This document shows positions 245 through 26,675 of a stretch of DNA of 64,000 nucleotides, in pieces. A program made the position numbers and the translations under genes. Location: contig NZ_MDGL01000160.1 of assembly GCF_002742265.1 (NCBI RefSeq), positions 1 through 64,000 on the forward strand. The letters run 5' to 3'. This DNA comes from Maribacter sp. 4G9. Lineage in GTDB: Bacteria > Bacteroidota > Bacteroidia > Flavobacteriales > Flavobacteriaceae. How positions within the stretch are numbered: position 1 is the first letter of the stretch; each line of letters begins with the position of its first letter. Below the pieces are notes generated by a model, which made no database searches, was not told the DNA's origin, and saw only the letters and a list, made by a program, of their open reading frames with translations.

Positions 245-766
245 ATGCTATATAATGATTTACATCACTACTTTTCATGGACTACAATTTCTATAGCAAC
301 ATTTTTAAAATCCACTGAAGCAAACGTAAAAGAGCTTTTTGATGAGGATATGGAAATTGGTAAGAATCAAATTTTAGGTGGCACGATTGTTACGCATATT
401 TCAAGAATGGAACATGAATTGAGTAAGGAAAAAGGAAAACCATGGCCAGGCATAGATAAGCATTATGGGGAACTGGAATTTCTTAATTTCACTTACATAA
501 GACATTGTTTTGCTCACGCTGGAGGCAAATTATTGCCAAACCGAAAAGAGAGTATAACTAGTTTTCTTTCGGAGCTAAAAAAGGGAAACATAGTGAACCA
601 TGAGAATAAATCGGTAAAACCCTATTATGATGTAGATGATAAGGATTTTCTGAAGTTGGACGCCAGCAGCATTGGAAGACTATCAAACCTGTGTAAGGAG
701 TTATTAGCTCTTAATGGAAAAATTGATAAAAAAACAGTTCACCCAAAAACTGATTGGATAATCTAA
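245..766 (+). CDS. HEPN-like hypothetical protein
   Basis: A 173-residue soluble protein, largely helical in appearance, without signal peptide. Residues 86-91 read RHCFAH, an R-x4-H motif, which together with the preceding hydrophobic helix (EFLNFTYI) resembles the Rx4-6H active site of HEPN-superfamily RNases and HEPN domains of toxin or defence proteins. The family assignment is inference from that motif; no other domain is recognised. It ends three bases before the first cassette-junction motif and is the first gene of the array seen here. Its own start is not preceded by a clear motif copy, so its left junction may have been lost to the neighbouring insertion sequence. Confidence 0.6.
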   Translation: MLYNDLHHYFSWTTISIATFLKSTEANVKELFDEDMEIGKNQILGGTIVTHISRMEHELSKEKGKPWPGIDKHYGELEFLNFTYIRHCFAHAGGKLLPNRKESITSFLSELKKGNIVNHENKSVKPYYDVDDKDFLKLDASSIGRLSNLCKELLALNGKIDKKTVHPKTDWII

Positions 767-785
767 ACGTTCAATAAAACGATTG
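767..785 (+). repeat. cassette-junction motif, copy 1
   Basis: ACGTTCAATAAAACGATTG; immediately follows the HEPN-like gene and precedes the 43-codon gene whose ATG is at 787. Confidence 0.7.
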
Positions 786-786
786 T

Positions 787-918
787 ATGAGGTTTGATGA
801 TGATAAATTAAGAAAGATGATTTGGAAACACCACAAGGACAGTATTCCGGTTTATATTGGTATAGTAATTCTAGTACTTATAGTTTTACTCATGTATTAT
901 ATTGATACGTCTTTCTAG
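787..918 (+). CDS. 43-residue single-span membrane peptide
   Basis: ATG at 787 lies two bases after a junction-motif copy and the frame closes with TAG at 916-918. The first 20 residues are charged (RFDDDK, KHHKD), followed by one strongly hydrophobic span of about 20 residues (IPVYIGIVILVLIVLLMYYI) and a short tail. It is too short for ordinary gene finders. Its position between two motif copies (767 and 937), in the same strand as all neighbours, supports it as a one-gene cassette. Function unknown; the size and topology would also fit a toxic or regulatory membrane peptide, but nothing shows that. Confidence 0.5.
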   Translation: MRFDDDKLRKMIWKHHKDSIPVYIGIVILVLIVLLMYYIDTSF

Positions 919-936
919 CAAACGATGTGACAATGA

Positions 937-956
937 AAAGTTTAAATAAACGATTG
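937..956 (+). repeat. cassette-junction motif, copy 2
   Basis: AAAGTTTAAATAAACGATTG, five bases before the ATG of the Nudix gene at 962. A partial AAACGATG also occurs at 920-927. Confidence 0.75.
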
Positions 957-961
957 TAGAA

Positions 962-1360
962 ATGACTGAAATTGACAAAATAGCGCTTATCGAAATCAAA
1001 GAGCATAAAATATTGAGTACAAAATCAATAGGTAGAACGAAATACTATATCCCAGGTGGTAAAAGGGAAAAGAACGAGACAGATGAACAAACATTGATAC
1101 GTGAAATTAAGGAAGAGCTTTCTGTAGATGTAATTCCAGGAACTTTGGAATACGTAGGAACTTTTAAAGCACAGTCAGACGGAGCAAAGGATGGGGTACT
1201 TGTGAAAATGACTTGCTATAAAGCAAAATATAAAGGGGATTTGACAGCAAACAGTGAGATTGAGGAAATCAAATGGTTAAATTTAAAAGATATAGACCTC
1301 ATATCTGAGGTTGATAAGATTATTTTTGGCCACCTAGCAGAAATTGGTGAGATCAACTAA
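962..1360 (+). CDS. Nudix hydrolase
   Basis: 132 residues, the size of a stand-alone Nudix domain. The Nudix box is seen as G33-x5-E39-x7-R47-E48-x2-E51-E52, with Ser54 in place of the usual final Gly. The residues before it (KYYIPGGK) match the beta-strand entering the box. Such enzymes hydrolyse a nucleoside diphosphate linked to another moiety using Mg2+; the substrate cannot be told from the sequence. It starts just after a junction motif and its stop at 1358-1360 is followed at once by a degenerate motif leading to the LOG-family gene. Confidence 0.85.
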   Translation: MTEIDKIALIEIKEHKILSTKSIGRTKYYIPGGKREKNETDEQTLIREIKEELSVDVIPGTLEYVGTFKAQSDGAKDGVLVKMTCYKAKYKGDLTANSEIEEIKWLNLKDIDLISEVDKIIFGHLAEIGEIN

Positions 1361-1361
1361 T

Positions 1362-1376
1362 ATTCAAATAACCAAT
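1362..1376 (+). repeat. cassette-junction motif, degenerate copy 3
   Basis: ATTCAAATAACCAAT, 12 of 15 positions equal to GTTCAAATAAACGAT; sits between the Nudix stop and the LOG-family ATG at 1380 and helps decide that start. Confidence 0.45.
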
Positions 1377-1379
1377 TCT

Positions 1380-1952
1380 ATGAATAGTGTTACTGTTTTT
1401 TGTGGGTCAAGTTCAGGAGAAAATGAATTATACCTTCACTCAGCCAAATCACTTGGCATCGCCTTAGCAGAAAACAATATAAGACTTATTTATGGGGGAG
1501 CGTCAGTAGGTCTTATGGGAGCTGTGGCCGATGGAGTATTAGATTCAGGAGGAACCGCTATTGGTGTACTTCCCCGTTTTTTACAAGCCAAGGAATTAGC
1601 ACATGATGGACTTAGTGAACTTATTTTAGTGGATTCAATGCACGAAAGGAAGACCAAGATGAATGAACTTAGCGACGGTGTTATAGCTCTGCCAGGTGGA
1701 TTTGGGACCCTGGAGGAGTTTTTTGAAATGCTTACTTGGGCTCAATTGGGGCTTCATAAAAAGCCTATGGCCATTCTCAATGTGAATCAATTTTATGATA
1801 CACTTTTGAAGTTTATGGAAAACATGGTAAATCAAGGTTTCTTAAAATATGAGAACCTAAAAATGATTTTGGCCGAAGAGAACATACAAGCGTTGTTGAC
1901 TGCCATGAAAAACTATAGGGCCCCTGATGTCGTAAAATGGATTGATAAATAA
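1380..1952 (+). CDS. LOG-family protein (cytokinin riboside 5'-monophosphate phosphoribohydrolase type)
   Basis: 190 residues from ATG 1380. A longer frame from a GTG at 1344 would overlap the Nudix gene, so I use the ATG that follows the junction motif and begins MNSVTVFCGSS, the usual family start. The family signature PGGFGTLEE is at residues 105-113 and the preceding MHERK at 88-92; both form the nucleotide-binding active site of LOG/lysine-decarboxylase-like enzymes, which release the base from a nucleoside 5'-monophosphate. Full length for the family. In bacteria these proteins are widespread and their true substrate is often not cytokinin. It is a single-gene cassette here. Confidence 0.9.
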   Translation: MNSVTVFCGSSSGENELYLHSAKSLGIALAENNIRLIYGGASVGLMGAVADGVLDSGGTAIGVLPRFLQAKELAHDGLSELILVDSMHERKTKMNELSDGVIALPGGFGTLEEFFEMLTWAQLGLHKKPMAILNVNQFYDTLLKFMENMVNQGFLKYENLKMILAEENIQALLTAMKNYRAPDVVKWIDK

Positions 1953-2002
1953 TCGACCTACATATGCAAGAACCTTTGTGGATTATTTTGGCATAACAAA
2001 CC

Positions 2003-2020
2003 AAAGTTCAAATAAACGTT
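2003..2020 (+). repeat. cassette-junction motif, copy 4
   Basis: AAAGTTCAAATAAACGTT, four bases before the ATG of the 37-codon gene at 2025. Confidence 0.75.
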
Positions 2021-2024
2021 AAAT

Positions 2025-2138
2025 ATGAAAAAAGAAGAATCAAAAAAACGACAACGTAGTTTCTTTATCGGTATTCTAGTTGGGATTGTATTATGGGCGA
2101 TAATAAAGGAGTTCGTTTGGCCTATGATTTCAGGTTAA
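2025..2138 (+). CDS. 37-residue single-span membrane peptide
   Basis: ATG at 2025 follows a motif copy; TAA at 2136-2138; the next motif copy begins at 2144. The peptide has a very basic head (KKEESKKRQR) and one hydrophobic span (FFIGILVGIVLWAIIKEFVW). It resembles the 43-residue peptide at 787 in size and topology but not in sequence. Function unknown. The compact motif-gene-motif arrangement is the main support. Confidence 0.5.
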   Translation: MKKEESKKRQRSFFIGILVGIVLWAIIKEFVWPMISG

Positions 2139-2143
2139 TTCAT

Positions 2144-2162
2144 AAAATTCAATAAAACGATG
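2144..2162 (+). repeat. cassette-junction motif, copy 5
   Basis: AAAATTCAATAAAACGATG; the ATG at its end opens only nine codons, so this copy leads into a near-empty interval of about 40 bases before the next copy. Confidence 0.7.
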
Positions 2163-2201
2163 ATTACCTACCAAACTAGGGTAGTGTAATCCCGAAACAT
2201 A
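2163..2201 (+). other. mini-interval with small hairpin between two motif copies
   Basis: Only 39 bases lie between copies 5 and 6. They hold a small inverted repeat (CTACC ... GGGTAG) followed by AATCCCGAAA. A related arrangement (TACTCC ... GGGGTA, then AATTCCGAAA) follows the motif copy at 4762. No gene. Confidence 0.35.
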
Positions 2202-2220
2202 AAAGTTCAAAAAAACGATT
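2202..2220 (+). repeat. cassette-junction motif, copy 6
   Basis: AAAGTTCAAAAAAACGATT, followed after three bases by the TTG start at 2224. Confidence 0.75.
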
Positions 2221-2223
2221 AAT

Positions 2224-2700
2224 TTGAACGAAAAAGAGGACTACTTTAGGATTTCCAAAAATGGACATGTTCATACTTTGAGCAATCAAATTCCTTTCAA
2301 GTGGAAAGAAATGATAATTTGGACTTCTACTACATTGTTTCTTTTGATTTATTTTCTTGGAATTGGCGTTGGAATTTTTGTAGCATTTTTGACTTGGATA
2401 GGTTATATGCTTTACCGATTCGCAGCATGGATTTACCACTCAGAATTAAATATTGACGAGAAAAGTGGAAAAATAATTCAATTGAAAAAAACTCTAGGTA
2501 AAACTCGAAAAATAAACATGATAACCGAAAAGTTTGACCCTGAACGAATTGAATATTTAGAATTGATCCGAAGTGGAAAAACAAAATTCTTACTGAATTA
2601 TCGGACGCATAAGGATAACGTGTTGCTAATTTTAAAGAGTAAAACGGACAAAGACCAGGTTGAAAAGTATATTTCAGAAAAAATAAAAATCCATTATTAA
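2224..2700 (+). CDS. two-span membrane protein of unknown function
   Basis: 158 residues from a TTG start directly after a motif copy; there is no nearby ATG in frame before the hydrophobic region, so TTG is the likely start. Residues 1-35 are soluble and basic, two adjacent hydrophobic stretches span about 35-75 (TTLFLLIYFLGIGVGIFVAF and LTWIGYMLYRFAAWI), and a cytoplasmic-looking tail of about 80 residues follows. The layout (two spans then a small beta-rich tail containing 'IDEKSGKIIQLKKTLGKTRKI') resembles bacterial PH-like membrane proteins, but I do not recognise the family with certainty. Confidence 0.6.
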   Translation: MNEKEDYFRISKNGHVHTLSNQIPFKWKEMIIWTSTTLFLLIYFLGIGVGIFVAFLTWIGYMLYRFAAWIYHSELNIDEKSGKIIQLKKTLGKTRKINMITEKFDPERIEYLELIRSGKTKFLLNYRTHKDNVLLILKSKTDKDQVEKYISEKIKIHY

Positions 2701-2717
2701 AGTATAAACAAACGATG
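2701..2717 (+). repeat. cassette-junction motif, copy 7
   Basis: AGTATAAACAAACGATG abutting the stop codon of the previous gene; its ATG is followed by a stop after two codons, so no gene starts here. The HigBA unit begins 160 bases later from its own promoter. Confidence 0.6.
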
Positions 2718-2785
2718 AGTTAGTACAATATATCATAATTCCTTGGCGATAAATAGATTAATAAGCTAGCAGCTGATTTAAACAT

Positions 2786-2806
2786 ATTTTCCCATCTCGG
2801 GAAAAT
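2786..2806 (+). promoter_or_regulatory. palindromic operator 1 upstream of higBA
   Basis: ATTTTCCC-N5-GGGAAAAT, a perfect 8-bp inverted repeat. It shares the core TTTCCC-N5-GGGAAA with operator 2, 33 bp away centre to centre (about three helical turns), as expected for an autorepressing toxin-antitoxin complex. Confidence 0.6.
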
Positions 2807-2812
2807 TTTAAC

Positions 2813-2845
2813 ATTTATCATTTCCCGTTTTGGGAAATGATAAAT
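2813..2845 (+). promoter_or_regulatory. palindromic operator 2 upstream of higBA
   Basis: A perfect 14-bp inverted repeat: ATTTATCATTTCCC, spacer GTTTT, then its reverse complement. It ends at the first base of a TACCTTTG box, so a bound repressor would block the promoter. Confidence 0.65.
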
Positions 2846-2852
2846 ACCTTTG
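2845..2852 (+). promoter_or_regulatory. -7 box of higBA promoter
   Basis: TACCTTTG is an exact match to the Bacteroidota -7 consensus TAnnTTTG, 22 bases before the higB ATG at 2875. No good -33 TTG is seen at the usual spacing. Confidence 0.5.
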
Positions 2853-2874
2853 TCTTAAGGTATTCATATTGATT

Positions 2875-3168
2875 ATGAGAATTTATTCAAAAAGCACTTT
2901 AATTGAATTCTGGAAAAAGAACCCAAAATCGGAAAAGCAGTTAAGGGCTTTTTACAGTATTATAAAGAACACTGAGTTTAAAAATTCTAACGAGGTGATT
3001 GCTTTATTTAACACGGCAGATGTTGTTAAGGATGGTAAAATAATATTCAATATTTGTCGTAACGATTTTAGATTGATCGTTAAATTCAATTATCAAAAAC
3101 ATGCGGCCTTTATAAGGTTTATTGGCACACATAAAGAGTATGATAAATTGAACATAGAAAGCCTTTAG
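2875..3168 (+). CDS. higB: HigB-type mRNA interferase toxin
   Basis: 97 residues from the ATG at 2875. An upstream TTG at 2830 lies inside the operator and is rejected. The sequence begins MRIYSKSTLIEFWKKNP and contains IFNICRNDFRLIVKFNY and FIRFIGTHKEYDKL, the conserved blocks of the HigB_toxin family (RelE fold, ribosome-dependent mRNA cleavage). The C-terminal GTHKEYD block carries the conserved His, Tyr and Asp. It precedes its antitoxin by 50 bases, the toxin-first order typical of HigBA. Two palindromes overlap the promoter, consistent with autoregulation. It is the only member of the array with clear private control elements. Confidence 0.92.
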   Translation: MRIYSKSTLIEFWKKNPKSEKQLRAFYSIIKNTEFKNSNEVIALFNTADVVKDGKIIFNICRNDFRLIVKFNYQKHAAFIRFIGTHKEYDKLNIESL

Positions 3169-3183
3169 TTAAATAGTAACATT

Positions 3184-3199
3184 TATAGTTCAAACTATA
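3184..3199 (+). promoter_or_regulatory. inverted repeat between higB and higA
   Basis: TATAGTT-CA-AACTATA, a 7-bp dyad in the 50-base gap before higA. It contains AGTTCAAA, the beginning of the junction motif. It may be a third operator or a decayed motif; neither is proven. Confidence 0.3.
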
Positions 3200-3218
3200 A
3201 CAAAAGACTGTTAGAGTT

Positions 3219-3608
3219 ATGGAAATCAAAATTATCAAATCCGAAAATCAGTACAGACAGTACTTAGAACGATTCAATAAAATATTCGATGCAGAAGAAG
3301 GAACACCTGAATCTGATGAGTTTGACTTATTGGCATTAGTAATTGAAAAATATGAGAATGAACACTACCATATAGAAGAGCCACATCCTTTGGAAGCAAT
3401 TAGATTTATGATGGAGCAGAATGGAATTAGTGAAGGTGATTTAGGTAAGATTATAAATAGTAGGTCCCGGGTTTCCGAACTTTTCAGTGGAACTAGAAAA
3501 TTGACCCTAAACCATATTAGGGCTATAAATAAAAGATTACACGTGCCAGCTGATATATTGATAAAAGATTACGAGGTTGGAGAAACACATCACGGTTTGT
3601 CGGCCTAA
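3219..3608 (+). CDS. higA: HigA-type antitoxin, XRE-family HTH
   Basis: 129 residues. The N-terminal half (about 1-60, acidic, DAEEGTPESDEFDLLALVIEKYE) is the toxin-binding extension of HigA-like antitoxins with N-terminal domain first. Residues about 62-120 form the helix-turn-helix (LEAIRFMMEQNGISEGDLGKI followed by SRSRVSELFSGTRKLTLNHIRAIN). The HTH would bind the TTTCCC-N5-GGGAAA palindromes upstream of higB and neutralise HigB. Same strand and 50 bases from higB, so one transcription unit. Confident family call; DNA site is inferred. Confidence 0.92.
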   Translation: MEIKIIKSENQYRQYLERFNKIFDAEEGTPESDEFDLLALVIEKYENEHYHIEEPHPLEAIRFMMEQNGISEGDLGKIINSRSRVSELFSGTRKLTLNHIRAINKRLHVPADILIKDYEVGETHHGLSA

Positions 3609-3664
3609 AATATCATATATAACTCTAATATAGATTTAATTGGTTAATAAAGGGCTCATGTAGT

Positions 3665-3682
3665 AAAGTTCAAATAAAGGAT
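3665..3682 (+). repeat. cassette-junction motif, copy 8
   Basis: AAAGTTCAAATAAAGGAT; the ATG that follows is at once closed by TAG, so no gene begins here. The 15 bases before it (AAAGGGCTCATGTAG) resemble those before copy 10 (AAAGGGTACTACTAT). Confidence 0.75.
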
Positions 3683-3849
3683 ATGTAGTATCATTTGATA
3701 AATAAAAAAGAACTTCGGTAGCTTGTTACTATATAAAACCGTTGTGAAACATTTTTACAGTCTATCATTACTATTCTACAATTCAGCATTTATAAATATT
3801 ATCAGTTTAAAAAAAGGTGGAGTTTAGAAGAAATAAACCAACTGAAATA

Positions 3850-4722
3850 ATGAAGAAAATAATAAAAATTATCGGATGGGCTTTTTTAATTCTACTACTA
3901 GGTGTAATTACAATCGGAACATATTTTTATCAAACCGACCCAATGATAAAAGCGATTGTCAATAACGATGAATCTAAATTGTACTATTTCCCAACCAAAG
4001 AAATGGACGATATGGACGAATTGGATTACCTTGAATCCTCTTTAAAAGTTGAAGATTCGATTAAAATATATACTTATCAATTTAAACCAATAGGAGAAAA
4101 AAGAGCGAACATTTTTCTAATTCACGGAGCAGGTGGAAATGTAAGTACATATCGAAATCTGATTAAACCTTTAACTGATAATGGATTTGGAGTTTACGCA
4201 TTGGATTGGCGAGGGTATGGGAAATCAACTGGAGTTCCCAATTACAAAGGAGTCATGAAAGATACCGAAATTGCATTTAAGGACTTTTCCACGAAAATAG
4301 CTCGGGATAGTTTAAAAACTATAGTTTATGGAATGTCATTAGGCGGTCCAATGGCCATTAAAATCACTAAGGACAATCAAAATAAAGTGAACTTATTAGT
4401 ATTGGATGGAACGGTGGAATCTGCACAAAGTTTGGCAATTGATTATGCACCGGTTGAATATCTCAAAGAAAAGTCTAAAAAATCACCTGAAAAGTTTAAT
4501 CAAGATTATGTTGGAGTTAGGGACATTGCGGAAATTAACAATATTCCAAAACTAATTATTCATAGCCGAATGGACAGAGATGTTCCTTTCAAGAGAGGTC
4601 AGAATGTGTTTAATTCGGCAAAAGAACCGAAAGAATTTTGGGAAACAGAAACCGACCATATAATGACATTGAGGGATTTATCAGACGAAACTGTAAAAAA
4701 GATTTCCGAGAAAATACATTAA
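3850..4722 (+). CDS. membrane-anchored alpha/beta hydrolase
   Basis: 290 residues from ATG 3850; an upstream GTG at 3817 would add a basic stretch before the membrane anchor and is less likely. Residues 1-25 (MKKIIKIIGWAFLILLLGVI) are a signal anchor. The alpha/beta-hydrolase core shows the oxyanion segment IHGAGGN, DWRGYGKS, nucleophile elbow YGMSLGG (Ser in GxSxG), acid region SRMDRDVPF and the late His in TDHIMT. This is the BEM46/YqkD-like group facing the periplasm. Substrate unknown. It is the first of three unrelated hydrolases in succession. Confidence 0.85.
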   Translation: MKKIIKIIGWAFLILLLGVITIGTYFYQTDPMIKAIVNNDESKLYYFPTKEMDDMDELDYLESSLKVEDSIKIYTYQFKPIGEKRANIFLIHGAGGNVSTYRNLIKPLTDNGFGVYALDWRGYGKSTGVPNYKGVMKDTEIAFKDFSTKIARDSLKTIVYGMSLGGPMAIKITKDNQNKVNLLVLDGTVESAQSLAIDYAPVEYLKEKSKKSPEKFNQDYVGVRDIAEINNIPKLIIHSRMDRDVPFKRGQNVFNSAKEPKEFWETETDHIMTLRDLSDETVKKISEKIH

Positions 4723-4761
4723 CTACATTGGCTTCTAGGACAACCCTGCCAAATTTGTAAT

Positions 4762-4778
4762 AGTTTAAATAAACGATG
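4762..4778 (+). repeat. cassette-junction motif, copy 9
   Basis: AGTTTAAATAAACGATG; the ATG opens only five codons. Followed by the small hairpin element described at 2163. Confidence 0.65.
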
Positions 4779-4844
4779 CCTAATACTCCTTAAACTGGGG
4801 GGTAATTCCGAAAGTAATTAGAATTCAATGAATTATCAATAACT

Positions 4845-4852
4845 TATATTTG
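4845..4852 (+). promoter_or_regulatory. -7 promoter box before the lipoprotein hydrolase
   Basis: TATATTTG, exact TAnnTTTG match, 18 bases before the ATG at 4871; no clear -33 TTG. Confidence 0.4.
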
Positions 4853-4870
4853 GCTTAATAGGTACAAGAA

Positions 4871-5845
4871 ATGAAATATATTCGGTTCATAATAATTATA
4901 CATCTTTTCTACAGCTGTCAATCCCAAACTCCCCAACTATTAATTGAAGAACGTCTAATTTCAGATTGGTCAAAATATCCGATTTACCCAAGGTTGATAG
5001 ATGACACCAATGGCAAAGCGAAGTGGAAAGAAAAATACCAATATTTAGATAGCATAAATGTATATGGAATAACCTATCTGAGCGATGGCCTTAAAATAAA
5101 AGGATTTATGGCCAAACCAAAAAAAGAAGGCAATTACCCTTGTATAATCTATAATAGGGGCGGTAACAGGGAGTTTGGGTCTCTCAATGCGGCCAACGGG
5201 GCAATAACCTTGGGACAGATTGCAAGAGAAGGATATGTGGTAATCGCTAGCCAATACAGAGGAAATGGTGGAAGTGAAGGACATGAAGAGTTTGGAGGCC
5301 GGGATATAAACGATATCCTTAACTTAACGGAAGTTTTGAAAGAAGTGGATGATGCCAATACGGAAAAAATCGGGATGTACGGATGGAGTCGTGGAGGAAT
5401 GATGACCTATATGGCATTGACCAAAACCGATGCAATCAAAGTTGCCGTTGTCGGAGGAGCTGTTTCTGATTGTTTCGAGACAATAAGAGACCGACCGGAA
5501 ATGGAGACCAACGTCATAGCCGAATTGGTCCCGAATTACGAACAATCAAAAGAGAAGGAGCTAACTAAACGGTCTGCGGTCAAATGGGCAAATCAATTCC
5601 CCAAAAATGTTCCAATATTGGTACTTCACGGTAATGCCGATTGGCGGGTCAAACCCGAACAGAGCTTGAGGCTGGCAATGGAATTTGAAAAATATAGGAT
5701 ACCTTACAGATTAATAATGTTCGAAGGTGGAGACCATGGGATTTTGGAGCATCGAAAGGAAGTGGACAGAGAAATAAAAGACTGGTTCGAAAAATACTTA
5801 AAATATGACGAGCCTTTACCTAATATGGAATACCACGGAAGATAA
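4871..5845 (+). CDS. lipoprotein prolyl-oligopeptidase-like hydrolase (S9/dienelactone-hydrolase type)
   Basis: 324 residues. The N-terminus (KYIRFIIIIHLFYSC) is a lipoprotein signal with Cys at about residue 16, so the enzyme is probably anchored at a membrane, facing the periplasm. The catalytic core contains GNGGSEGHEEFGG, nucleophile YGWSRGGMMT, acid HGNADWRV and the His in GGDHGILEH, the order of S9-type serine hydrolases without the beta-propeller. Substrate could be a peptide or ester. It begins after motif copy 9 but has its own -7 box, and the reading frame is complete. Confidence 0.87.
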   Translation: MKYIRFIIIIHLFYSCQSQTPQLLIEERLISDWSKYPIYPRLIDDTNGKAKWKEKYQYLDSINVYGITYLSDGLKIKGFMAKPKKEGNYPCIIYNRGGNREFGSLNAANGAITLGQIAREGYVVIASQYRGNGGSEGHEEFGGRDINDILNLTEVLKEVDDANTEKIGMYGWSRGGMMTYMALTKTDAIKVAVVGGAVSDCFETIRDRPEMETNVIAELVPNYEQSKEKELTKRSAVKWANQFPKNVPILVLHGNADWRVKPEQSLRLAMEFEKYRIPYRLIMFEGGDHGILEHRKEVDREIKDWFEKYLKYDEPLPNMEYHGR

Positions 5846-5894
5846 AATTTGTTATTAAACCCATTGGTTTAGTCTGAAAAACTAGTGTATTCAA

Positions 5895-6953
5895 TTAAAG
5901 GGTACTACTATGTAAAAGTTCAAATAAAGGATTGTGTTTTATTTCAATCAACGTTCCAATTCTTCTAAAAAGCAAAATGATTTCTTTGCAGATAATATCC
6001 GCATTTTTCTTTTCGGTGAAAATGGTAAAATGACCTCCATCTAGGAAAAATACCTTACCATTTGTTGATAAGGACGCCATTTCTTCCTGCATCTTTTTCC
6101 TTTCGGTTCTCATATTTTCTGGATGTAAACCCATTTTTCGAAGAGCTCTTTCGTTTAAATGTGTTCCGGAAAAAACCCTTATCGGTGAACTATCAGTTTC
6201 CATTACTTTTTTGGACATTTCTTCCAATGACCCATGCCACTTACGCTCTTCCAAGTAACCCCATAGATATTTACCACTGGAAAAGTAGTCGTCATATCGA
6301 TTGGTAACTACCTCAGGGACCCCGGGGGCTATCATAACATTATTCCCGAAAACTGATGTATATAAGTCTAAGACTCCTAAATCCCCTAAAATAGCACCCG
6401 CATAATACATTAAATTTAACCAATCGGGAGATGGTGGCAACTTTAGCCGTTCGCGTTCGTCAGGATGCCCAGAATCAATTAGTACCATAGCGGCCACTTC
6501 GTTCGGATAGCATTGTTTAAATACTCGAATATAGTGGCCGCCGTGTGAGTGTCCGGCCAGAATATAGGGAGGTGATTCCCCTGTCCTTTCCAACAATTTG
6601 TGCAGTTCATGGGCAACAGTTTCGGGATCGCGTGGCCCATCGCTTAGTTCACTATAACCTATACCGGCACGGTCATAGCGAACGACTCGCATACTATCAC
6701 GAAGGCCTTCCGCTAGCCAATAATAGTATTCACTGTGAGCTCCTGCGCCAGCTTCAATCACCAAAGTTGGTTTGTTGTTTCTTTCACCCGTACTATTTAT
6801 ATGTAGTTTGAAACCTCCAACGTCCACCAACTTTCCTGGCGGTTGTGGTTTGTTTCCAAATAAACGAAGGACCAAACCAGCTATAATAATTAACAGAAAC
6901 AACGATGCAATCGAAATACCGACCCACTTTAAGACCTTACAGATTATTCTCAT
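5895..6953 (-). CDS. membrane-anchored alpha/beta hydrolase, reverse orientation
   Basis: 352 residues. Residues 1-35 include an N-terminal membrane anchor (ISIASLFLLIIIAGLVLRLF). The core shows VIEAGAGAHSEYYYW, YDRAGIGYS, the nucleophile elbow AGHSHGG, IDSGHPDE and the C-terminal His in GGHFTIF. This is the haloalkane-dehalogenase/epoxide-hydrolase-like group of alpha/beta hydrolases; substrate unknown. It is the only gene of the array before 12 kb on the minus strand. Its expected end is near LFRRIG; the last 20 or so residues (including LIEIKHNPLFELL) are encoded by junction-motif DNA read backwards, as if the native stop had been lost on insertion. It is divergent from the LytS/LytTR pair. 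Confidence 0.85.
   Translation of the reverse strand: MRIICKVLKWVGISIASLFLLIIIAGLVLRLFGNKPQPPGKLVDVGGFKLHINSTGERNNKPTLVIEAGAGAHSEYYYWLAEGLRDSMRVVRYDRAGIGYSELSDGPRDPETVAHELHKLLERTGESPPYILAGHSHGGHYIRVFKQCYPNEVAAMVLIDSGHPDERERLKLPPSPDWLNLMYYAGAILGDLGVLDLYTSVFGNNVMIAPGVPEVVTNRYDDYFSSGKYLWGYLEERKWHGSLEEMSKKVMETDSSPIRVFSGTHLNERALRKMGLHPENMRTERKKMQEEMASLSTNGKVFFLDGGHFTIFTEKKNADIICKEIILLFRRIGTLIEIKHNPLFELLHSSTL
5915..5932 (+). repeat. cassette-junction motif, copy 10
   Basis: AAAGTTCAAATAAAGGAT. Here the neighbouring gene lies on the opposite strand, and its last codons read through the motif in reverse. Confidence 0.75.
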
Positions 6954-7072
6954 AATAATTTATAGTTTTATCATTTTAGCCAAACATAAATTCACTGAAA
7001 GACTGTTTGAAATTATTTTGATGAACCATCCATAAAGCCGCATCTGTAGACATGATTCTTTGGCCAATAGGA

Positions 7073-7104
7073 TTCGACCAAATTAAGGGTATGTTCGACC
7101 CAAA
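7073..7104 (+). promoter_or_regulatory. direct repeats, candidate LytTR binding site
   Basis: TTCGACCAAA at 7073-7082 and TTCGACCCAAA at 7094-7104 are direct repeats 21 bp apart (two helical turns), the geometry known for LytTR-domain regulators. Further related boxes occur as GGTC at 7117-7120 and ACGACC at 7132-7137. They lie in the 210-bp divergent space between the hydrolase and the LytS/LytTR genes. Confidence 0.4.
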
Positions 7105-7163
7105 ATCCATAGTGTTGGTCAAAGAGATTATACGACCGGTATCAATATCCATATTTTTGCCTT

Positions 7164-8111
7164 ATGAAAAGTTCTTTTGCAAAACACCGTAAGGCCCTAT
7201 ATAAATTATTGGCAGTATTTGGGTTGCTAGTTGTTATGCTTGCGATACCACATTATAAAGGTATCTGGGATAGCGCTTTTACTATCCCGCTTTTGATTCT
7301 ATTCTGGCTTGGGGTCGCTTACTTTGTCTTACCCGAATTTTTTAAAAAATATAGGTTCCCTATTCTTTTCATATACGGATTGGTCATCACTTATAATTTT
7401 TACGTTTTTAACATGACGTCTGACCTCCCTGAAAATCACCGATTGAATTTGACAAATTTTATGTTCATTCCGATTCCGATATTTGCTGCCTTGTGGACTT
7501 ATGAGCAATGGCGTTGGTTGAAAACGCTAAAGGCAGATATGGCAAAGGCAGAATTAACTTTGCTTAAAAGTCAGATCAATCCACATTTCTTTTTCAATAC
7601 CTTGAACAACATTTATGGATTGGTGGTTGAAAAATCCGAGCAAGCCCCCGAAGTGGTCTTAAAATTATCTGATATGATGCGTTACACCATCTACAATGGA
7701 AAAGAAGATTTGGTGCCATTAGAAGATGAAATCAACTATCTCAAAAACTACATTGGACTGCACAAAATACGCTATCAAAAAAAAGTGGAAATTGTATTCA
7801 CCCATGAGGTTCACGAGGGTATCAAGGTCGCACCTTTGTTATTTATCAATTTATTGGAAAATGCCTTTAAGCATGGTGTAGAGGAAATGCGTGAGAATGC
7901 TTTTGTTCGTATTAATATGCAATCGAAAGGAAAGCAGCTCTTATGTACGATTGAAAATAGTTTTGACGAAAGGGAATCAAATCACAGTAAGGGTATAGGG
8001 TTAGAAAATTTGAAAAAAAGACTGGATCATTTATACCCAGGTAGACATGAATTGATTGTAGAGAAAAAGGAATTTATTTATAAAGTCCAGCTTAATCTTG
8101 AAATACTATGA
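7164..8111 (+). CDS. LytS/YpdA-type sensor histidine kinase
   Basis: 315 residues. Four hydrophobic spans fill residues about 12-115, then a short coiled linker (WRWLKTLKADMAKAELTLLKSQ) leads into the His_kinase domain with the phospho-acceptor block INPHFFFNTLNNIYGLV. The N-box (FINLLENAFKHGVEE) and the G-box (KGIGLENLKKRL) form the ATPase. This is the small-sensor kinase class that partners LytTR regulators in Bacteroidota. Its stop overlaps the start of the response regulator (ATGA), so the two are translationally coupled. The signal is unknown. It lies in the same inter-motif interval (5.9-8.9 kb) as the divergent hydrolase. Confidence 0.93.
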   Translation: MKSSFAKHRKALYKLLAVFGLLVVMLAIPHYKGIWDSAFTIPLLILFWLGVAYFVLPEFFKKYRFPILFIYGLVITYNFYVFNMTSDLPENHRLNLTNFMFIPIPIFAALWTYEQWRWLKTLKADMAKAELTLLKSQINPHFFFNTLNNIYGLVVEKSEQAPEVVLKLSDMMRYTIYNGKEDLVPLEDEINYLKNYIGLHKIRYQKKVEIVFTHEVHEGIKVAPLLFINLLENAFKHGVEEMRENAFVRINMQSKGKQLLCTIENSFDERESNHSKGIGLENLKKRLDHLYPGRHELIVEKKEFIYKVQLNLEIL

Positions 8112-8797
8112 AATATTGCATTATCGACGATGAACCCATTGCCCACCGAATCATCGAAGGGTATTGTAAAAACTTACCTTATCTCCAAAAGAAAGGAAAC
8201 TGCTACGATGCTTTTGAAGCCATACAATTCATGAATAGTATTCAAGTAGATCTAATTTTCTTGGATATCAATATGCCCAAGCTCTCCGGATTCGATCTAT
8301 TGAAAACATTGTCACAACCTCCAAAAGTAATCGTGACTTCTGCGCATAAAGAATTTGCCTTGCAAGGATATGAATTGGACGTTATTGATTACTTGTTAAA
8401 ACCTTTTTCACTTGAACGATTTTTAAAGGCAATGAACAAAGTTTCAGAAAATAATAGCCTAAACCAAATTTCTTCGCCAGATAGTCAGAAAAGTAGTTTT
8501 TTTTTAAAGGGCGACAAGAAAATTCACCAGATAAGTACCGATGATATTCTGTTTGTTGAAGCATATGGTAATTATTCAAAGGTGTTTTTGACTGAGGAAA
8601 TAATTGTCAACCACGAAAAAATTTCTTCTTTGGAAGCTTTATTGCCCGATTCTGACTTTCTAAGAGTGCATAAATCTTTTATTGTGGCCATCAATAAAAT
8701 AAAAGTGATAGAAGGAAATAGAATAGCAATTAAAGAGCACTTTGTTCCTATTGGACAAACATACAGGCAAAGGTTAAAACATCTCTATCGCATTTAA
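8108..8797 (+). CDS. LytTR-family response regulator
   Basis: 229 residues. The receiver domain (1-115) shows the acid pair in IIDDEP, the phospho-acceptor Asp in LIFLDINMPKLSG, Thr in VIVTSAHKEFA and the late Lys in DYLLKPF. Residues about 130-229 are a LytTR DNA-binding domain (DDILFVEAYGNYSKVFL, LRVHKSFIVAINKI, IPIG-like VPIGQTYRQRLK). It overlaps the kinase gene by four bases. It probably acts on the direct repeats in the divergent promoter region upstream of the kinase, possibly controlling both the pair and the neighbouring hydrolase; this is inference from position. Confidence 0.94.
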   Translation: MKYCIIDDEPIAHRIIEGYCKNLPYLQKKGNCYDAFEAIQFMNSIQVDLIFLDINMPKLSGFDLLKTLSQPPKVIVTSAHKEFALQGYELDVIDYLLKPFSLERFLKAMNKVSENNSLNQISSPDSQKSSFFLKGDKKIHQISTDDILFVEAYGNYSKVFLTEEIIVNHEKISSLEALLPDSDFLRVHKSFIVAINKIKVIEGNRIAIKEHFVPIGQTYRQRLKHLYRI

Positions 8798-8877
8798 AGA
8801 TGATTTTATAGGTATCTTCACTAAGCGACAGTTTGAATAGGAAATAATAGACATTTGGTTATTTTAGTATCTTTCTT

Positions 8878-8896
8878 AAAGTTCAAATAAACGATG
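8878..8896 (+). repeat. cassette-junction motif, copy 11 (consensus)
   Basis: AAAGTTCAAATAAACGATG, the exact consensus; its terminal ATG is the start codon of the GIY-YIG-like gene. Confidence 0.85.
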
Positions 8897-9371: not shown

Positions 9372-9390
9372 AAAGTTCAAATAAACGATT
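9372..9390 (+). repeat. cassette-junction motif, copy 12
   Basis: AAAGTTCAAATAAACGATT, directly followed by the ATG at 9391. Confidence 0.85.
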
Positions 9391-9864
9391 ATGAAAACTT
9401 CAAACAATATTACCGGAGTAACGGGGGAATATTATGTGTGTGCTGAACTAGGATACAGAGGTGTTTTGGCAATCCCGACACCCAAGAACAATCCTTTATT
9501 CGATTTGTTAGCAACTGACTTAGAGGCTAATAAAATGATCGCTATTCAAGTCAAAACTATGTCAAAAGGAAACAAGCAGGGCTGGAGATTGAACAAAGGA
9601 ATTACAATTCGAAAGAATAACCCGAACCTTTTTGTGGTGCTTGTAAACTTATTGGAAAAAGAAAATTGTGACTATTACATTTACCCATATGATTCTTTAA
9701 GCGAAAGAGTAGAAGAAATCTATAAAAAGTATATCAACACCCCAAAAAAGGATGGATCTGCTAGAAAGGATGTTGATTTTAGATGGTTCAATCATAATGA
9801 CTTTTCTGAGGAAGATCAGAAGAAGAAAAATAACTGGGAGCTGTTACCATTTAAACTTAAATAA
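9391..9864 (+). CDS. PD-(D/E)XK-like protein (DUF4365-like)
   Basis: 157 residues. Glu13 in GEYYVCAELG, Asp38 in NPLFDLLA and Gln53-x-Lys55 in AIQVKT match the E...D...(E/Q)xK layout of restriction-endonuclease-like folds, and the line 'ITGVTGEYYV.AEL..RG..A' resembles group I intron endonuclease-like and DUF4365 proteins. No DNA-binding domain is attached. The stop codon TAA (9862-9864) lies inside the next junction motif, so the last two codons belong to it. It is followed after three bases by a HEPN-like gene, and the two could be cotranslated. Confidence 0.6.
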   Translation: MKTSNNITGVTGEYYVCAELGYRGVLAIPTPKNNPLFDLLATDLEANKMIAIQVKTMSKGNKQGWRLNKGITIRKNNPNLFVVLVNLLEKENCDYYIYPYDSLSERVEEIYKKYINTPKKDGSARKDVDFRWFNHNDFSEEDQKKKNNWELLPFKLK

Positions 9865-9870
9865 ACCATG
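9853..9870 (+). repeat. cassette-junction motif, copy 13
   Basis: AAACTTAAATAAACCATG; holds the stop codon of the upstream gene and the start codon of the downstream gene. Confidence 0.6.
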
Positions 9871-10383
9871 AGCAAAGAAGAGCAAATTAGATTTACTAAA
9901 ATGACCAAAAGGTCTCTTAAAGAATTTAACCAAATTGAAGCTCAGGGATGGGTTGTAAATATTTCGGTTCAAATAGAAGATTTGATAGATGATATCCTTA
10001 TAGAATATTTCCAACCTAGTGATAGAAGAACTTTCTTAAATGTTTTGTTGAATAGTAGCGTAATGCATTTTGGTGGAAAATTGAAGGTGCTAAGATCTAT
10101 AGGAATTGATGGTGGAATATATTCAAGTTTACAGAGAATAGGGTCAATAAGAAATGCTTTTGCACATACGAACATAAGTCATTCTATGACAATAACTTGG
10201 GATCCCGAATCTGATGCCAAGACCGATGTCAAAGATGTAATCAATGTAATGAACAGCAATGGAGAAATAAAAAGCAAAGACCCTTATAGCTATATGGTTG
10301 AATTCCTAGAACTATATAAGCAGGTTGAGCCAGTATTGAAGAAAATGCGCGACGACATATTCGAATCATTGAAAAAGGATTAA
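9868..10383 (+). CDS. HEPN/MltR-like protein
   Basis: 171 residues. The block from IEDLIDDILIEYF through SSVMHFGGKLKVLRSIG to IGSIRNAFAHTN resembles the mannitol-repressor (MltR) and related HEPN-type helical proteins; R95-N-A-F-A-H100 is the R-x4-H motif of that superfamily. It starts four bases after the PD-(D/E)XK-like gene. A nuclease-like and a HEPN-like protein side by side may act together, for instance in defence, but both could equally be independent cassettes, since a junction motif separates them. No partner nucleotidyltransferase (MNT) is present. Confidence 0.65.
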   Translation: MSKEEQIRFTKMTKRSLKEFNQIEAQGWVVNISVQIEDLIDDILIEYFQPSDRRTFLNVLLNSSVMHFGGKLKVLRSIGIDGGIYSSLQRIGSIRNAFAHTNISHSMTITWDPESDAKTDVKDVINVMNSNGEIKSKDPYSYMVEFLELYKQVEPVLKKMRDDIFESLKKD

Positions 10384-10386
10384 TTA

Positions 10387-10404
10387 AAAGTAAAAAAAAC
10401 GATG
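10387..10404 (+). repeat. cassette-junction motif, copy 14
   Basis: AAAGTAAAAAAAACGATG; its ATG starts the next gene. Confidence 0.6.
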
Positions 10405-10635
10405 AAACTCTACTGCTACATACAAATGACTGTTGGATATATTTTGATAGCCCTTGTTGCGCTATTTGCAACTAAATTGTTAATCGTTATCATAGAAGGC
10501 ACACCAGTTACCGAAAATAGAACATTGTTTAGATACATCGGGTCGGGTTATGGACTTCCGATACTTTTAGGATTTATTATCCTTTCAGGAGCAATTATGG
10601 TAAATGGCGCATTGAAAAATCTAAAGTCAAAATAA
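10402..10635 (+). CDS. small two-span membrane protein
   Basis: 77 residues with two hydrophobic spans (about 9-30 and 50-68: YGLPILLGFIILSGAIMV), a short polar loop and a basic C-terminus (LKNLKSK). The start ATG belongs to motif copy 14 and the last codons plus TAA belong to copy 15. I do not recognise the family. Being bounded exactly by two motif copies, it is one of the clearest one-gene units in the array. Confidence 0.6.
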   Translation: MKLYCYIQMTVGYILIALVALFATKLLIVIIEGTPVTENRTLFRYIGSGYGLPILLGFIILSGAIMVNGALKNLKSK

Positions 10636-10641
10636 ACGATG
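10623..10641 (+). repeat. cassette-junction motif, copy 15
   Basis: AAAGTCAAAATAAACGATG; encodes the end KSK-stop of the upstream gene and the ATG of the downstream gene. Confidence 0.75.
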
Positions 10642-10944
10642 GATCCAAGAATAATTTTGGGCAAAATTTTACAACGTTTTTCAGATAAAGGTTTCTGTCA
10701 AGTTTCAGGTTATAATAAATTTAAGTATTTGAGAGAGAATAAAAATGCGGTTTATGTCGGAAGGGAAAAAGGTAAAGATACTCGCATTGGATTCGGGAAA
10801 GTAATAATTGGAATTGAAGCGTTACAGCTTAATCCTGATCTTTATAATGCAGGGCCAAATGCCTTGAGGAAATTTGGTATAACCCACGTTAATAGTCCAG
10901 TTTGGTCTTTACTTCATTTAATGGCAATGGAAGATTATAAATAG
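10639..10944 (+). CDS. hypothetical protein, 101 residues
   Basis: Soluble, mildly basic, no membrane segment or signal peptide. It contains the phrase KNAVYVGREKGKDTRIGFGKVIIGIEALQ and a C-terminal NSPVWSLLHLMAME. I do not recognise a family; the repeated short beta-like pattern in the centre would fit a small single-domain protein. Start codon supplied by junction motif copy 15; copy 16 begins two bases after its stop. Unknown function. Confidence 0.6.
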   Translation: MDPRIILGKILQRFSDKGFCQVSGYNKFKYLRENKNAVYVGREKGKDTRIGFGKVIIGIEALQLNPDLYNAGPNALRKFGITHVNSPVWSLLHLMAMEDYK

Positions 10945-10945
10945 A

Positions 10946-10964
10946 AAAGTTCAAAAAAAGGATG
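10946..10964 (+). repeat. cassette-junction motif, copy 16
   Basis: AAAGTTCAAAAAAAGGATG; its ATG starts the next gene. Confidence 0.75.
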
Positions 10965-11309
10965 AGCAACTTCACTAAAATTCTACTTACAATACCATCT
11001 ATGATTGGGCTTGTTTATATGTGGACTTTTATATATCCAAAATCAATTGCCTGGATTTCAAATAATATTGTTGCCTATGAGTTCCAAAATCCATTTGTCA
11101 CCAGTTTAATTTTGATTCAACTTGGATATTTGATTCATAGGTTATGGAGCTTCAAAAACATTCAAAAGGAAAAGAAAACTAACTGGACATTATTACTCGT
11201 TATTTTCAACGTTGTAACAAGTTTAATTTTTATTTGGAAAAAGTACAGCGAATTTGAACAACACGATAAATACTCTCTAAGTAGTGAAGAATCAAGTAAT
11301 AAAGTATAA
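10962..11309 (+). CDS. three-span membrane protein of unknown function
   Basis: 115 residues with three hydrophobic stretches (about 5-25, 45-65 and 74-92) and a charged C-terminal tail rich in Ser and Glu. No catalytic motif. The start comes from motif copy 16 and the stop TAA lies inside copy 17. No family recognised. Confidence 0.6.
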   Translation: MSNFTKILLTIPSMIGLVYMWTFIYPKSIAWISNNIVAYEFQNPFVTSLILIQLGYLIHRLWSFKNIQKEKKTNWTLLLVIFNVVTSLIFIWKKYSEFEQHDKYSLSSEESSNKV

Positions 11310-11318
11310 TAAAGGATG
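11301..11318 (+). repeat. cassette-junction motif, copy 17
   Basis: AAAGTATAATAAAGGATG; contains the stop of the upstream gene and the ATG of the downstream gene. Confidence 0.65.
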
Positions 11319-11800: not shown

Positions 11801-11819
11801 AAAGTTTAATAAAAGGATG
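11801..11819 (+). repeat. cassette-junction motif, copy 18
   Basis: AAAGTTTAATAAAAGGATG; its ATG opens the short frame at 11817. Confidence 0.65.
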
Positions 11820-12866: not shown

Positions 12867-12878
12867 AATTTAAACTTT

Positions 12879-24477: not shown

Positions 24478-24496
24478 AAAGTTCAAAAAAACGATG
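24478..24496 (+). repeat. cassette-junction motif, copy 20
   Basis: AAAGTTCAAAAAAACGATG; first copy right of the metal block; its ATG starts the TPR-like gene. Confidence 0.8.
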
Positions 24497-24802
24497 AGTA
24501 GTTTCGATACAATGGTTCAGAGAAATCTGATGGGCAAAAGGTTAGAGAAAGAAGGAAGGGTATTAGAAGCCAAAGCACTATATGAGGCCAATATTTCTGA
24601 AAGTTTTGAAGGAAGCTTTCCCTATAGAAGACTAGCAATCCTTTATAGGAAAGGAAAATATTCTAGAGAAGAAATTAGAGTCCTTGAAAAAGCGGTGTCT
24701 GTATTTCAATCACTTATCGAAACCGGTAGAGAAGATATTCGTCCAAAGCTAATTGAATTCAAGGAACGTTTGGAAAAAACAAAATTGTTAAACTCTAAAT
24801 AA
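24494..24802 (+). CDS. TPR-like helical protein
   Basis: 102 residues, almost entirely helical and charged. GKRLEKEGRVLEAKALYEANISESFEGSFPYRRLAILYRKGKYSREEIRVLEKAVSVF has the spacing of two tetratricopeptide-like helical pairs (A..LE..G...EA..LYE; P..RLA.LY...K...E). Such folds usually bind other proteins. The start codon is in motif copy 20 and the stop TAA is in copy 21. No partner is evident other than the following gene, three bases on. Confidence 0.65.
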   Translation: MSSFDTMVQRNLMGKRLEKEGRVLEAKALYEANISESFEGSFPYRRLAILYRKGKYSREEIRVLEKAVSVFQSLIETGREDIRPKLIEFKERLEKTKLLNSK

Positions 24803-24808
24803 AAGATG
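24790..24808 (+). repeat. cassette-junction motif, copy 21
   Basis: AAACTCTAAATAAAAGATG; contains the stop of the TPR-like gene and the ATG of the next gene. Confidence 0.6.
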
Positions 24809-25441
24809 GGTAATATCACTTTCATAAGCACGATTCACAAGGAAATTGGAAAAAGTAATGCTCATGAATTATATAAGATTATCAATAAATTAAGTCCAGA
24901 TGTGATTTTTTTGGAGGCAATAGAAGAAACTTATTCAGAATATGAAAATTATTTGTTTTCGACATATGGGGTATTTCATGGTAAATTGGAAATTTCCGCA
25001 ATTCAGAAATATAACTACAATACTTCCTTTCAATATATACCTGTCTGTGAAAATGGACTATCAGATGCATTTCATAAAAAAATCAAGTTAGTTAGTCAAA
25101 ATACAGAACTACGAAAATTGATTGATAATTTTAATTATTTAGCGGCAGGAAATGGATTTGAATTCCTTAATAGTCTGGAATGTATAAATCTTCAAGAAGA
25201 TATGAGGGTGTTGGAAAGTTTGATTTTAAATAATACCGAGTTAGATAAAACAGTTATGGCCGACATTGAAGCCTATGAAAAGCCCATGATGCATAATATC
25301 TATTCCTATTGCATCAATAACAATTTCAGTTCTGCAATATTTATGTGTGGTGCCGCACATAGAAAATCAATAATTGAAAAGATAGAAAAATCTAAGAACA
25401 AGAAGCGAGGGAACCTGTCATGGACTATTTATGGAAATTGA
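24806..25441 (+). CDS. TraB/TIKI-like hypothetical protein
   Basis: 211 residues, no signal peptide. It begins ITFISTIHKEIGKSNAHELYKII and contains PDVIFLEAIEE, and near the end AIFMCGAAHRKSIIEKIE. A first strand ending in a conserved His, an 'E' after VIFLE and a late G-x-x-H are the spaced landmarks of the EreA/TraB (TIKI) superfamily, metal-dependent hydrolases or their inactive relatives. This is a distant resemblance and not a firm call. Confidence 0.45.
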   Translation: MGNITFISTIHKEIGKSNAHELYKIINKLSPDVIFLEAIEETYSEYENYLFSTYGVFHGKLEISAIQKYNYNTSFQYIPVCENGLSDAFHKKIKLVSQNTELRKLIDNFNYLAAGNGFEFLNSLECINLQEDMRVLESLILNNTELDKTVMADIEAYEKPMMHNIYSYCINNNFSSAIFMCGAAHRKSIIEKIEKSKNKKRGNLSWTIYGN

Positions 25442-25514
25442 TCTGTATCCTTCCCTAATAGTGTAGCTTTTCCTTTTTTCAGCTCCTGGTAATTCAGATG
25501 TCGTAACTTTAACT

Positions 25515-25534
25515 GAGAGTACAAATAAAGGATT
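25515..25534 (+). repeat. cassette-junction motif, copy 22
   Basis: GAGAGTACAAATAAAGGATT followed by ATG at 25535, which opens a 15-codon leader frame. Confidence 0.6.
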
Positions 25535-25582
25535 ATGAGTGTAAAAACTGAGATGACAACCATAGAGAATGGAGATATCTGA
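25535..25582 (+). other. 15-codon leader frame overlapping the next gene
   Basis: The ATG directly after motif copy 22 opens MSVKTEMTTIENGDI and stops at 25582, 14 bases past the ATG (25569) of the PD-(D/E)XK gene in another frame. It may couple translation to that gene or show a small frameshift at its start. Confidence 0.35.
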
Positions 25583-26105
25583 TATACTTAAAATATTTAA
25601 CAAGTCCCTAACTTCTCTTTTCAAGTACGATAAATGGTTGATTGAAAATGATTTGAGCGAGCAGTGTATTACTCATAAACTGGCCGAGCATCTACAGAGG
25701 AACTTTCTTGGTTATAATGTAGACTGTGAGTACAATGGGAATATTGATAGTGAAGGCGGTAAAAAACGAATAGTCGCTGTCAAGCGTAATTTGAAAGAAA
25801 ACAATCTCATAAAAAGAAGCGAGGAATTAAGCGGACAAGATTTAATAAATAGGGCAGTCTTCCCCGATGTTATTATCCACAAAAGAGGATCAAATGAAAA
25901 TAATTTATGTATCATAGAAGTAAAAAAATCAACCAACAAGTCAGATTTCAAATATGATGAAATAAAGTTGTCGGCGTACACAACAGATTATTATGGCAAT
26001 GATTTAAAATATAAACTTGGAATATTTCTATGTATTGAAACTGGTACGTCTGATAAGGCTTTTGAAATAAAAACATTTATCAACGGAATGGAATATTCAT
26101 TTTAA
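25569..26105 (+). CDS. PD-(D/E)XK nuclease-like protein
   Basis: 178 residues. P99-D100 in RAVFPDVIIHKRG and E117-V-K119 in NLCIIEVKKS give the classic PD...ExK catalytic set, followed by the helix DEIKLSAYT and a final strand GIFLCIETG. The fold is that of restriction-like endonucleases, but no restriction, toxin or helicase partner is adjacent, so its target is unknown. The ATG at 25569 is the first that gives the whole domain; the usual motif-supported start at 25535 is out of frame. Confidence 0.7.
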   Translation: MEISDILKIFNKSLTSLFKYDKWLIENDLSEQCITHKLAEHLQRNFLGYNVDCEYNGNIDSEGGKKRIVAVKRNLKENNLIKRSEELSGQDLINRAVFPDVIIHKRGSNENNLCIIEVKKSTNKSDFKYDEIKLSAYTTDYYGNDLKYKLGIFLCIETGTSDKAFEIKTFINGMEYSF

Positions 26106-26122
26106 AATAGCCATTTTGGGTT

Positions 26123-26141
26123 AAAGTTCAAATTAAGGATG
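26123..26141 (+). repeat. cassette-junction motif, copy 23
   Basis: AAAGTTCAAATTAAGGATG; its ATG starts the next gene. Confidence 0.75.
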
Positions 26142-26675
26142 ACAGAAGGATTTAATCTTATTCCAGTAATTTCCGGCGTGATTGGAGCCTTAATTGGAGC
26201 AACTTCTGCTAATTACTTTGCCTCGAAATCTAGAAAATCCAATCAGACTTTTGAGTTTCATAAAGAATTTAATAGCACGTCTTTTTCAAAATATCGAAGT
26301 GAAGCCTACTTGTTGATTAAAAATCACCCTAACAAAAACTATGATGAGCTTTGGGAAGAAGAGTTCCATGGCAATAACGAAGTTAGGACCATTAGTTTAT
26401 ATATGATCATGAGATTTTACCAAAGATTATGGTTGGCGATAAAATATGATAAAATTGACAATCAAATTGCACCAGATCTCTTTGGTGAAGTCTTTGTTTG
26501 GTGGTACTATTTCTCCTTTGAAAAAAACCTAGTTGAAGGGACATCATGGACAGCAGGGGGACAAATGTTACAGTTAGAAAGATGGTTTCAAAAAAACATG
26601 AATGTAGTTATTTATAAGAACGAAATGAATAACGCCTTGGAAAGGTTGATAGCTATTTCAAATAAAGTTCAATAA
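26139..26675 (+). CDS. single-span membrane protein of unknown function
   Basis: 178 residues. One N-terminal span (LIPVISGVIGALIGATSANYFA) anchors a basic then mixed cytosolic part with several aromatic stretches (YLMIMRFYQRLWLAI-like and VWWYYFSFEKNL). This topology, an N-terminal glycine-zipper-like anchor with a helical domain behind it, recalls DUF4760-type proteins of mobile DNA, but I do not claim the family. The last residues KVQ and the stop codon are encoded by motif copy 24. Confidence 0.6.
   Translation: MTEGFNLIPVISGVIGALIGATSANYFASKSRKSNQTFEFHKEFNSTSFSKYRSEAYLLIKNHPNKNYDELWEEEFHGNNEVRTISLYMIMRFYQRLWLAIKYDKIDNQIAPDLFGEVFVWWYYFSFEKNLVEGTSWTAGGQMLQLERWFQKNMNVVIYKNEMNNALERLIAISNKVQ

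Follow-up and report, generated by a model that had tools for sequence, protein, structure and literature searches.

The repeated 18-bp motif described here is, as far as sequence comparison can tell, the joint of mobile gene cassettes rather than mainly an expression signal, and we consider it likely that it acts as the recombination site of an integron-like cassette system run by a small serine recombinase. This reading draws on the conserved site, the boundaries of the units between sites, the link with the recombinase and an inverted half-site before the recombinase gene. The window (the whole 64,000-nucleotide stretch analysed, from contig NZ_MDGL01000160.1 of Maribacter sp. 4G9) holds the consensus-like motif AAAGTTCAAATAAACGAT and variants of it in two stretches, 0.7-11.8 kb and 24.5-26.7 kb. 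A search allowing up to three mismatches identified 15 copies, every one on the plus strand, where 0.06 were expected, and a weight matrix identified 18, plus strand throughout. Worn joints at 9853-9869, 10386-10403, 11301-11317 and 24790-24807, which the first-pass annotation had counted, were missed by both scans; homologous cassettes elsewhere start or stop within about 10 bp of those at 10386, 11301 and 24790.

Array A covers 766..5932 of the plus strand, with sites starting at 766, 937, 1359 (worn), 2003, 2144, 2202, 2699, 3665, 4760 and 5915. Proteins of the NUDIX, lysine-decarboxylase-like (PF03641), HTH_3 and hydrolase kinds are among those encoded by its cassettes; one unit of 58 bp, at 2144-2202, contains no ORF. 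Two small ORFs lie at 2830-3608 within the array, the second of which matches HTH_3; we take the pair to resemble a HigB/HigA-type toxin-antitoxin. The gene adjoining joint 5915 is on the minus strand. There follows a plus-strand cassette of 2963 bp (5933..8895), which has a reversed alpha/beta hydrolase inside, as well as what we judged by eye to be a histidine kinase and a LytTR-type regulator, and which ends on its own site. This site (8878..8895, plus strand) is a copy of AAAGTTCAAATAAACGAT whose AT, together with the following G, forms the ATG of ORF 8894-9367. Further plus-strand joints are a consensus copy at 9372..9389; the worn joint 9853..9869, with the stop of ORF 9391-9864 and the start of ORF 9868-10383, which is without homologs to confirm it; the worn joint 10386..10403, where homology to a cassette of locus L163 spans 10379-10640; 10623..10640, with the stop of ORF 10402-10635 and the start of ORF 10639-10944; 10946..10963, where ORF 10962-11309 begins; and the worn joint 11301..11317, with the stop of that ORF and the start of ORF 11316-11795. 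Homology runs over the last of these in L102 (11298-11813) and L098 (11308-11824), each at 90%. The last joint of array B, 11801..11818 on the plus strand, was found by the weight-matrix scan. Array C (24478..26681, plus strand) has sites starting at 24478, 24790 (worn), 25516, 26123 and 26664 and ORFs at 24494-24802, 24806-25441, 25569-26105 and 26139-26675; its cassette at 24478-24808 has homologs in L135 and L130.

The surroundings of the arrays have features of their own. Past array B, 56-131 bp of the segment 11874-12004 recur at 69-86% identity in mobile loci (L220, L223, L225-L228, L283, L304-L306 and L104). The segment includes AAAACGGCCGTT, which resembles the dyad upstream of more distant resolvases, and is probably an end of such an element. 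Between arrays B and C, at 12058-24356, lie minus-strand genes, with one ORF of 1499 aa and no sites; our impression, and only that, is of a metal-resistance island. A tRNA-Met gene lies past array C at 27263-27337, and homology to most relatives begins about there; the C155 array likewise stops near tRNA-like sequence.

The whole genome of the strain contains 76 copies of the motif at up to three mismatches, against 16 for a reversed control pattern, and many of these copies sit in one-strand clusters on several contigs. At up to one mismatch 25 of 60 genomes match, this one included, with 30 matches on a single strand of two contigs in genome G029. Directly upstream of the long array on contig C9 of G029 is an ORF (L207, 1243-2250) that by eye we judged to be an IS110-type transposase. 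A scan of public genomes gave at least 116 stretches with the motif; among the matches listed most are from Flavobacteriaceae (Flagellimonas, Muricauda/Allomuricauda, Maribacter, Arenibacter, Pricia, Euzebyella and Aquimarina), and single matches in unrelated bins are taken for chance.

The matrix scan of 1.23 Mb identified 638 copies versus 5 in the reversed sequence, with repeats of the same stretch still counted. An alignment of 592 distinct contexts sets the length of the site at 18 bp, with columns 0-17 conserved and flanks that are not; the contexts were chosen at up to two mismatches, so that the inner conservation partly reflects selection, which does not hold for the sharp edges. Positions 16-17 are AT in 505 of 528 array sites, and the first base after the site is G in 165 of these 528. 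The intervals between copies have a median length of 565 bp. What they encode is varied: 80 cassette proteins scanned gave 41 Pfam families, and of the 25 families listed 24 occur in one protein each. Cassettes with ParD/ParE (toxin-antitoxin) are present.

That the units move is indicated by homologous cassettes from different places at 75% identity or more, of which 33 pairs were collected first and 45 later; both flanks are unrelated in 40 of the 45 pairs. Agreement within pairs drops to chance at left position -1 and at right position 18, while right position 19 stays above it (24/41). Two cassettes are common to L169 and L197, from different genomes, in changed order, and cassettes are also common to different genera. 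The 2963-bp unit of the window recurs on contig C122 of the same genome at 94% identity. Homology of this pair opens just after the left site and extends through the final base of the right one; the left site is absent at the C122 copy. With 29 cassette families compared by one pair each, the right site agrees at variable positions 5, 6, 9 and 10 in 99 of 116 cases and the left site in 81 of 116 (p=0.007); position 14 alone gives no significant separation of left and right (15/29 vs 21/29). Among 84 distinct relocated places both sites are kept in 66, the right only in 11, the left only in 6 and none in 1, a weak asymmetry in which some one-sided places of both kinds are sites shifted by an indel. 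The site is probably part of the cassette's 3' end, and the 2963-bp pair and the four variable positions lead us to place the crossover close to the motif's right end, with the AT at positions 16-17 as the strongest candidate for a two-base core. An inner dyad, GTTTA-AA-TAAAC, had been considered as a crossover at the middle of the motif, and was dropped because the left site travels poorly with the cassette and because the recombinase dyad described below consists of two whole half-sites. A clean empty site was sought and none was obtained: the array flanks of C155 and of genome G007 are rearranged or diverged, and the small arrays of G010 and G023, with cassettes homologous to those of G007, were read and gave no empty counterpart.

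We propose that a cassette consists of one gene (or two, or none) followed by a 3' half-site of 16 bp, AAAGTTYAAATAAASG, and the core dinucleotide AT. The recombinase would pair two direct sites and cut the two-base core, thereby releasing a cassette, as a circle, which could be inserted at another site by a crossover at the core. Arrays would in this way grow and reshuffle, and their genes could be read from upstream. With a core that is almost always AT, any cassette starting with G would acquire an ATG when inserted, and the upstream frame could be closed by the half-site's TAA.

The enzyme was found by way of its position. Clustering of the ORFs near arrays gave a resolvase in seven loci, and matches to PF00239 in the genus fall close to motif clusters. 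The enzyme of the strain itself, on contig C39 (the window was found to contain no recombinase of the array-associated serine family), was searched against the proteins of 397 Flavobacteriaceae genomes, 26 of which match at E<=1e-25, distant ones included. For the surroundings we extracted 39 stretches, each 20 kb at most; 37 come from places of the protein search and two from the PF00239 matches in the genus. At 52% identity or more there are 32 distinct genes, in two closely related subfamilies, of which A has a Cys-rich tail and B lacks it. Same-strand sites lie downstream of 27 of the 32 genes, 135 sites altogether, against 7 upstream (in L174, L271 and L307) and none on the opposite strand outside the promoter region. 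In the subset from the protein search this holds for 20 of 24 distinct genes, whereas 12 more distant resolvases used as controls have no sites at all over 204 kb (0/12; one-sided Fisher p ~1.5e-6, with genes that are not fully independent). Five of the 32 genes are without a downstream site in the stretch examined; for one of these the stretch has 895 bp only, and in G029 the sites begin further on. L238, on a 4.6-kb contig, and L372, from Aureispira, both with about 53% identity, have no downstream array.

The recombinase matches PF00239, with a resolvase domain at residues 2-140 and a C-terminal helix-turn-helix at 165-189, for which the HTH_7 match of 23.1 bits is just below the cut-off of 23.8. 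It also matches DNA-invertase and gamma-delta resolvase chains of the PDB (E to 1.8e-36), and R7, S9, R44, R67 and R70, which we take to be the catalytic residues, are invariant in 10 of 10 aligned recombinases. The domain, the Ser and Arg residues and the C-terminal helix-turn-helix make it a member of the small serine recombinases. A predicted model of the enzyme has a mean pLDDT of 76.5 and a pTM of 0.51, and no conclusion rests on it. On its right side the recombinase unit has no sharp edge; in a pair from G137 the homology begins at -107 and continues to +1108, close to where one copy has a poor site.

Upstream of the recombinase gene we recognised an inverted half-site, for example ACCGTTTTATTRAACTTT, in 23 of the 32 genes, with a core about 104-110 bp before the start that reads AC in 21 of the 23 and GC in 2. 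One of the remaining nine genes is too close to the contig end, and most others have a partial or broken half-site. In several genes a direct half-site stands opposite, which gives a dyad of 34 bp such as AAAGTATAAACAAACG-AC-CGTTTTTATAAACTTT, and homology between recombinase units stops at or near the ACC of the inverted half-site. In its layout this upstream dyad is that of a small serine recombinase site, in agreement with the Pfam, PDB and residue evidence. L169, L187 and L229 have a second inverted site at -25/-26 besides that at -111/-112, 86 bp apart, and the paired sites look like a two-part operator. The half-site or dyad at the left end could be a platform of the attI kind, an operator through which the gene may control itself, or the end through which the array was introduced into the chromosome. 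Three of the 12 control resolvases (L290, L292 and L304), which have no arrays, carry the dyad AAAACG-GC-CGTTTT, or one near it, at about -105, and the position may therefore be that of an inherited operator and not array-specific. It looks as if the position of the dyad was inherited within the recombinase family, with the outer letters of the A/B half-site matching the arrays. The shared dyad of the controls and the weaker counts of one-sided places slightly temper our confidence in the proposal.

The serine recombinase could instead be a passenger or a mere resolver of array-bearing elements, with another enzyme, such as a tyrosine recombinase, or recombination between short repeats, moving the cassettes. 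Serine recombinases normally require matching cores, and the arrays have AT where the recombinase has AC. Some arrays, moreover, have no recombinase gene, as in G020, where arrays are present and PF00239 finds nothing. A family that by eye we judged to be tyrosine-recombinase-like occurs in 10 array loci, as compared to 7 for the resolvase, and in 6 of those 10 it lies upstream of the array on the same strand. Relatives of this family, however, turn up near no more than 3 of the 24 recombinase loci, and near 1 of the 12 controls, on either strand, whereas the serine gene precedes same-strand arrays in the 20 of 24 cases given above and is itself preceded by a half-site that matches the array site. 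We regard the passenger explanation as unlikely.

Far less probable is a motif under selection as a signal, of translation or transcription, that links genes through re-initiation, which is close to what the first-pass annotation proposed on the basis of stops and starts that fall together in the motif. These stops and starts are real. Comparison of the ORF list with the motif positions confirms that the stops at 9864, 10635, 11309, 24802 and 26675 are ORF ends within motif copies, and nine listed ORFs (60 aa or longer) use an ATG whose AT closes a motif copy, at 8894, 9868, 10402, 10639, 10962, 11316, 24494, 24806 and 26139. A tenth start, at 9391, lies one base past a copy, and the joint ATGs at 2144, 2699, 4760 and 11801 open no ORF of 60 aa or longer. 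The joint does supply the last residues of one protein and the start codon of the next, as claimed, and the idea that it is a point where units are inserted is borne out. In 442 intervals drawn from many loci, the longest ORF runs forward 379 times, or in 379 of the 405 that are coding, as a linking signal would have it; 67 of the 379 start on the AT+G of the motif, and stops cluster at offsets +1/+2 (52) and +12/+13 (44), with the TAA and the AT(G) both within the site. Against expression as the main purpose, sites also bound the units with a reversed ORF (26/442) and those with none (37/442), the homology of relocated units ends at the site, and the motif accompanies a recombinase; most of the forward ORFs, all but the 67, also begin elsewhere than on the joint. 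Before the genes with an ATG at the joint one Bacteroidetes-type -7 box is rarer than in shuffles (2 of 85 vs 8.1), and a second variant is not (12 vs 9.1); these counts neither prove nor exclude read-through.

Least probable of all is an ordinary integron, with the tyrosine integrase IntI and folded attC sites, or a CALIN: the single orientation, the mostly one ORF per unit, the cassettes common to different genera and the ParD/ParE cassettes would suit it, but a search for partner boxes and hairpins revealed none that is general (certain 7-8-mers do stand out, though in a small share of contexts), folding is weaker at the joints than inside cassettes, where G+C is higher (mean MFE -6.4 vs -7.5 on the bottom strand, n=156), and the genome of the strain has no TIGR02249 match above the curated cut-off (18 lie below it), the enzyme at the array head being of PF00239.

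The textbook means of assembling interchangeable gene cassettes into rows is the integron, and the serine-recombinase system proposed here resembles it in several respects. The cassettes are tandem, mostly single-ORF, in the same orientation, mobile and bounded by a site; the site lies probably at their 3' end, a likeness weakened by the right-only and left-only places, 11 against 6; ORF-less and toxin-antitoxin cassettes occur; and a recombinase stands at the array head, with some arrays lacking one. According to PMC8618304, integrons rely on a tyrosine recombinase and attC, and CALINs are arrays that lack the integrase. The proposed system differs in its serine recombinase, in an 18-bp site without a hairpin, in a recombinase gene that points along the array and in a core AT that is part of the start codon. 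With gamma-delta/Tn3 resolvase and the DNA invertases it shares the PF00239 domain, the C-terminal helix-turn-helix and inverted half-sites that flank a 2-bp core upstream of the gene, presumably a res-like arrangement; unlike those systems, it has many unrelated genes arrayed at single half-sites. IS607-family serine transposases belong to the same serine recombinase family, and the minimal target specificity ascribed to them in PMC4058570 is counted as a likeness. The DNA-binding domain of IS607 TnpA is N-terminal according to PMC6188088, whereas that of the array recombinase is C-terminal. No report of serine-recombinase cassette arrays was found in the literature searched, which leaves out preprints and most subscription journals. 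We hold it somewhat more probable than its opposite that this is a second, independent invention of the integron, in which a serine recombinase shuffles cassettes, the AT core gives the start and the inverted half-site provides self-control. If true, it gives access to a large and mostly unknown set of mobile genes in marine flavobacteria and offers a compact tool for ordered gene insertion. The cassette-array design would then have arisen twice, once of these times around a simple site of 18 bp and an enzyme unrelated to that of integrons.
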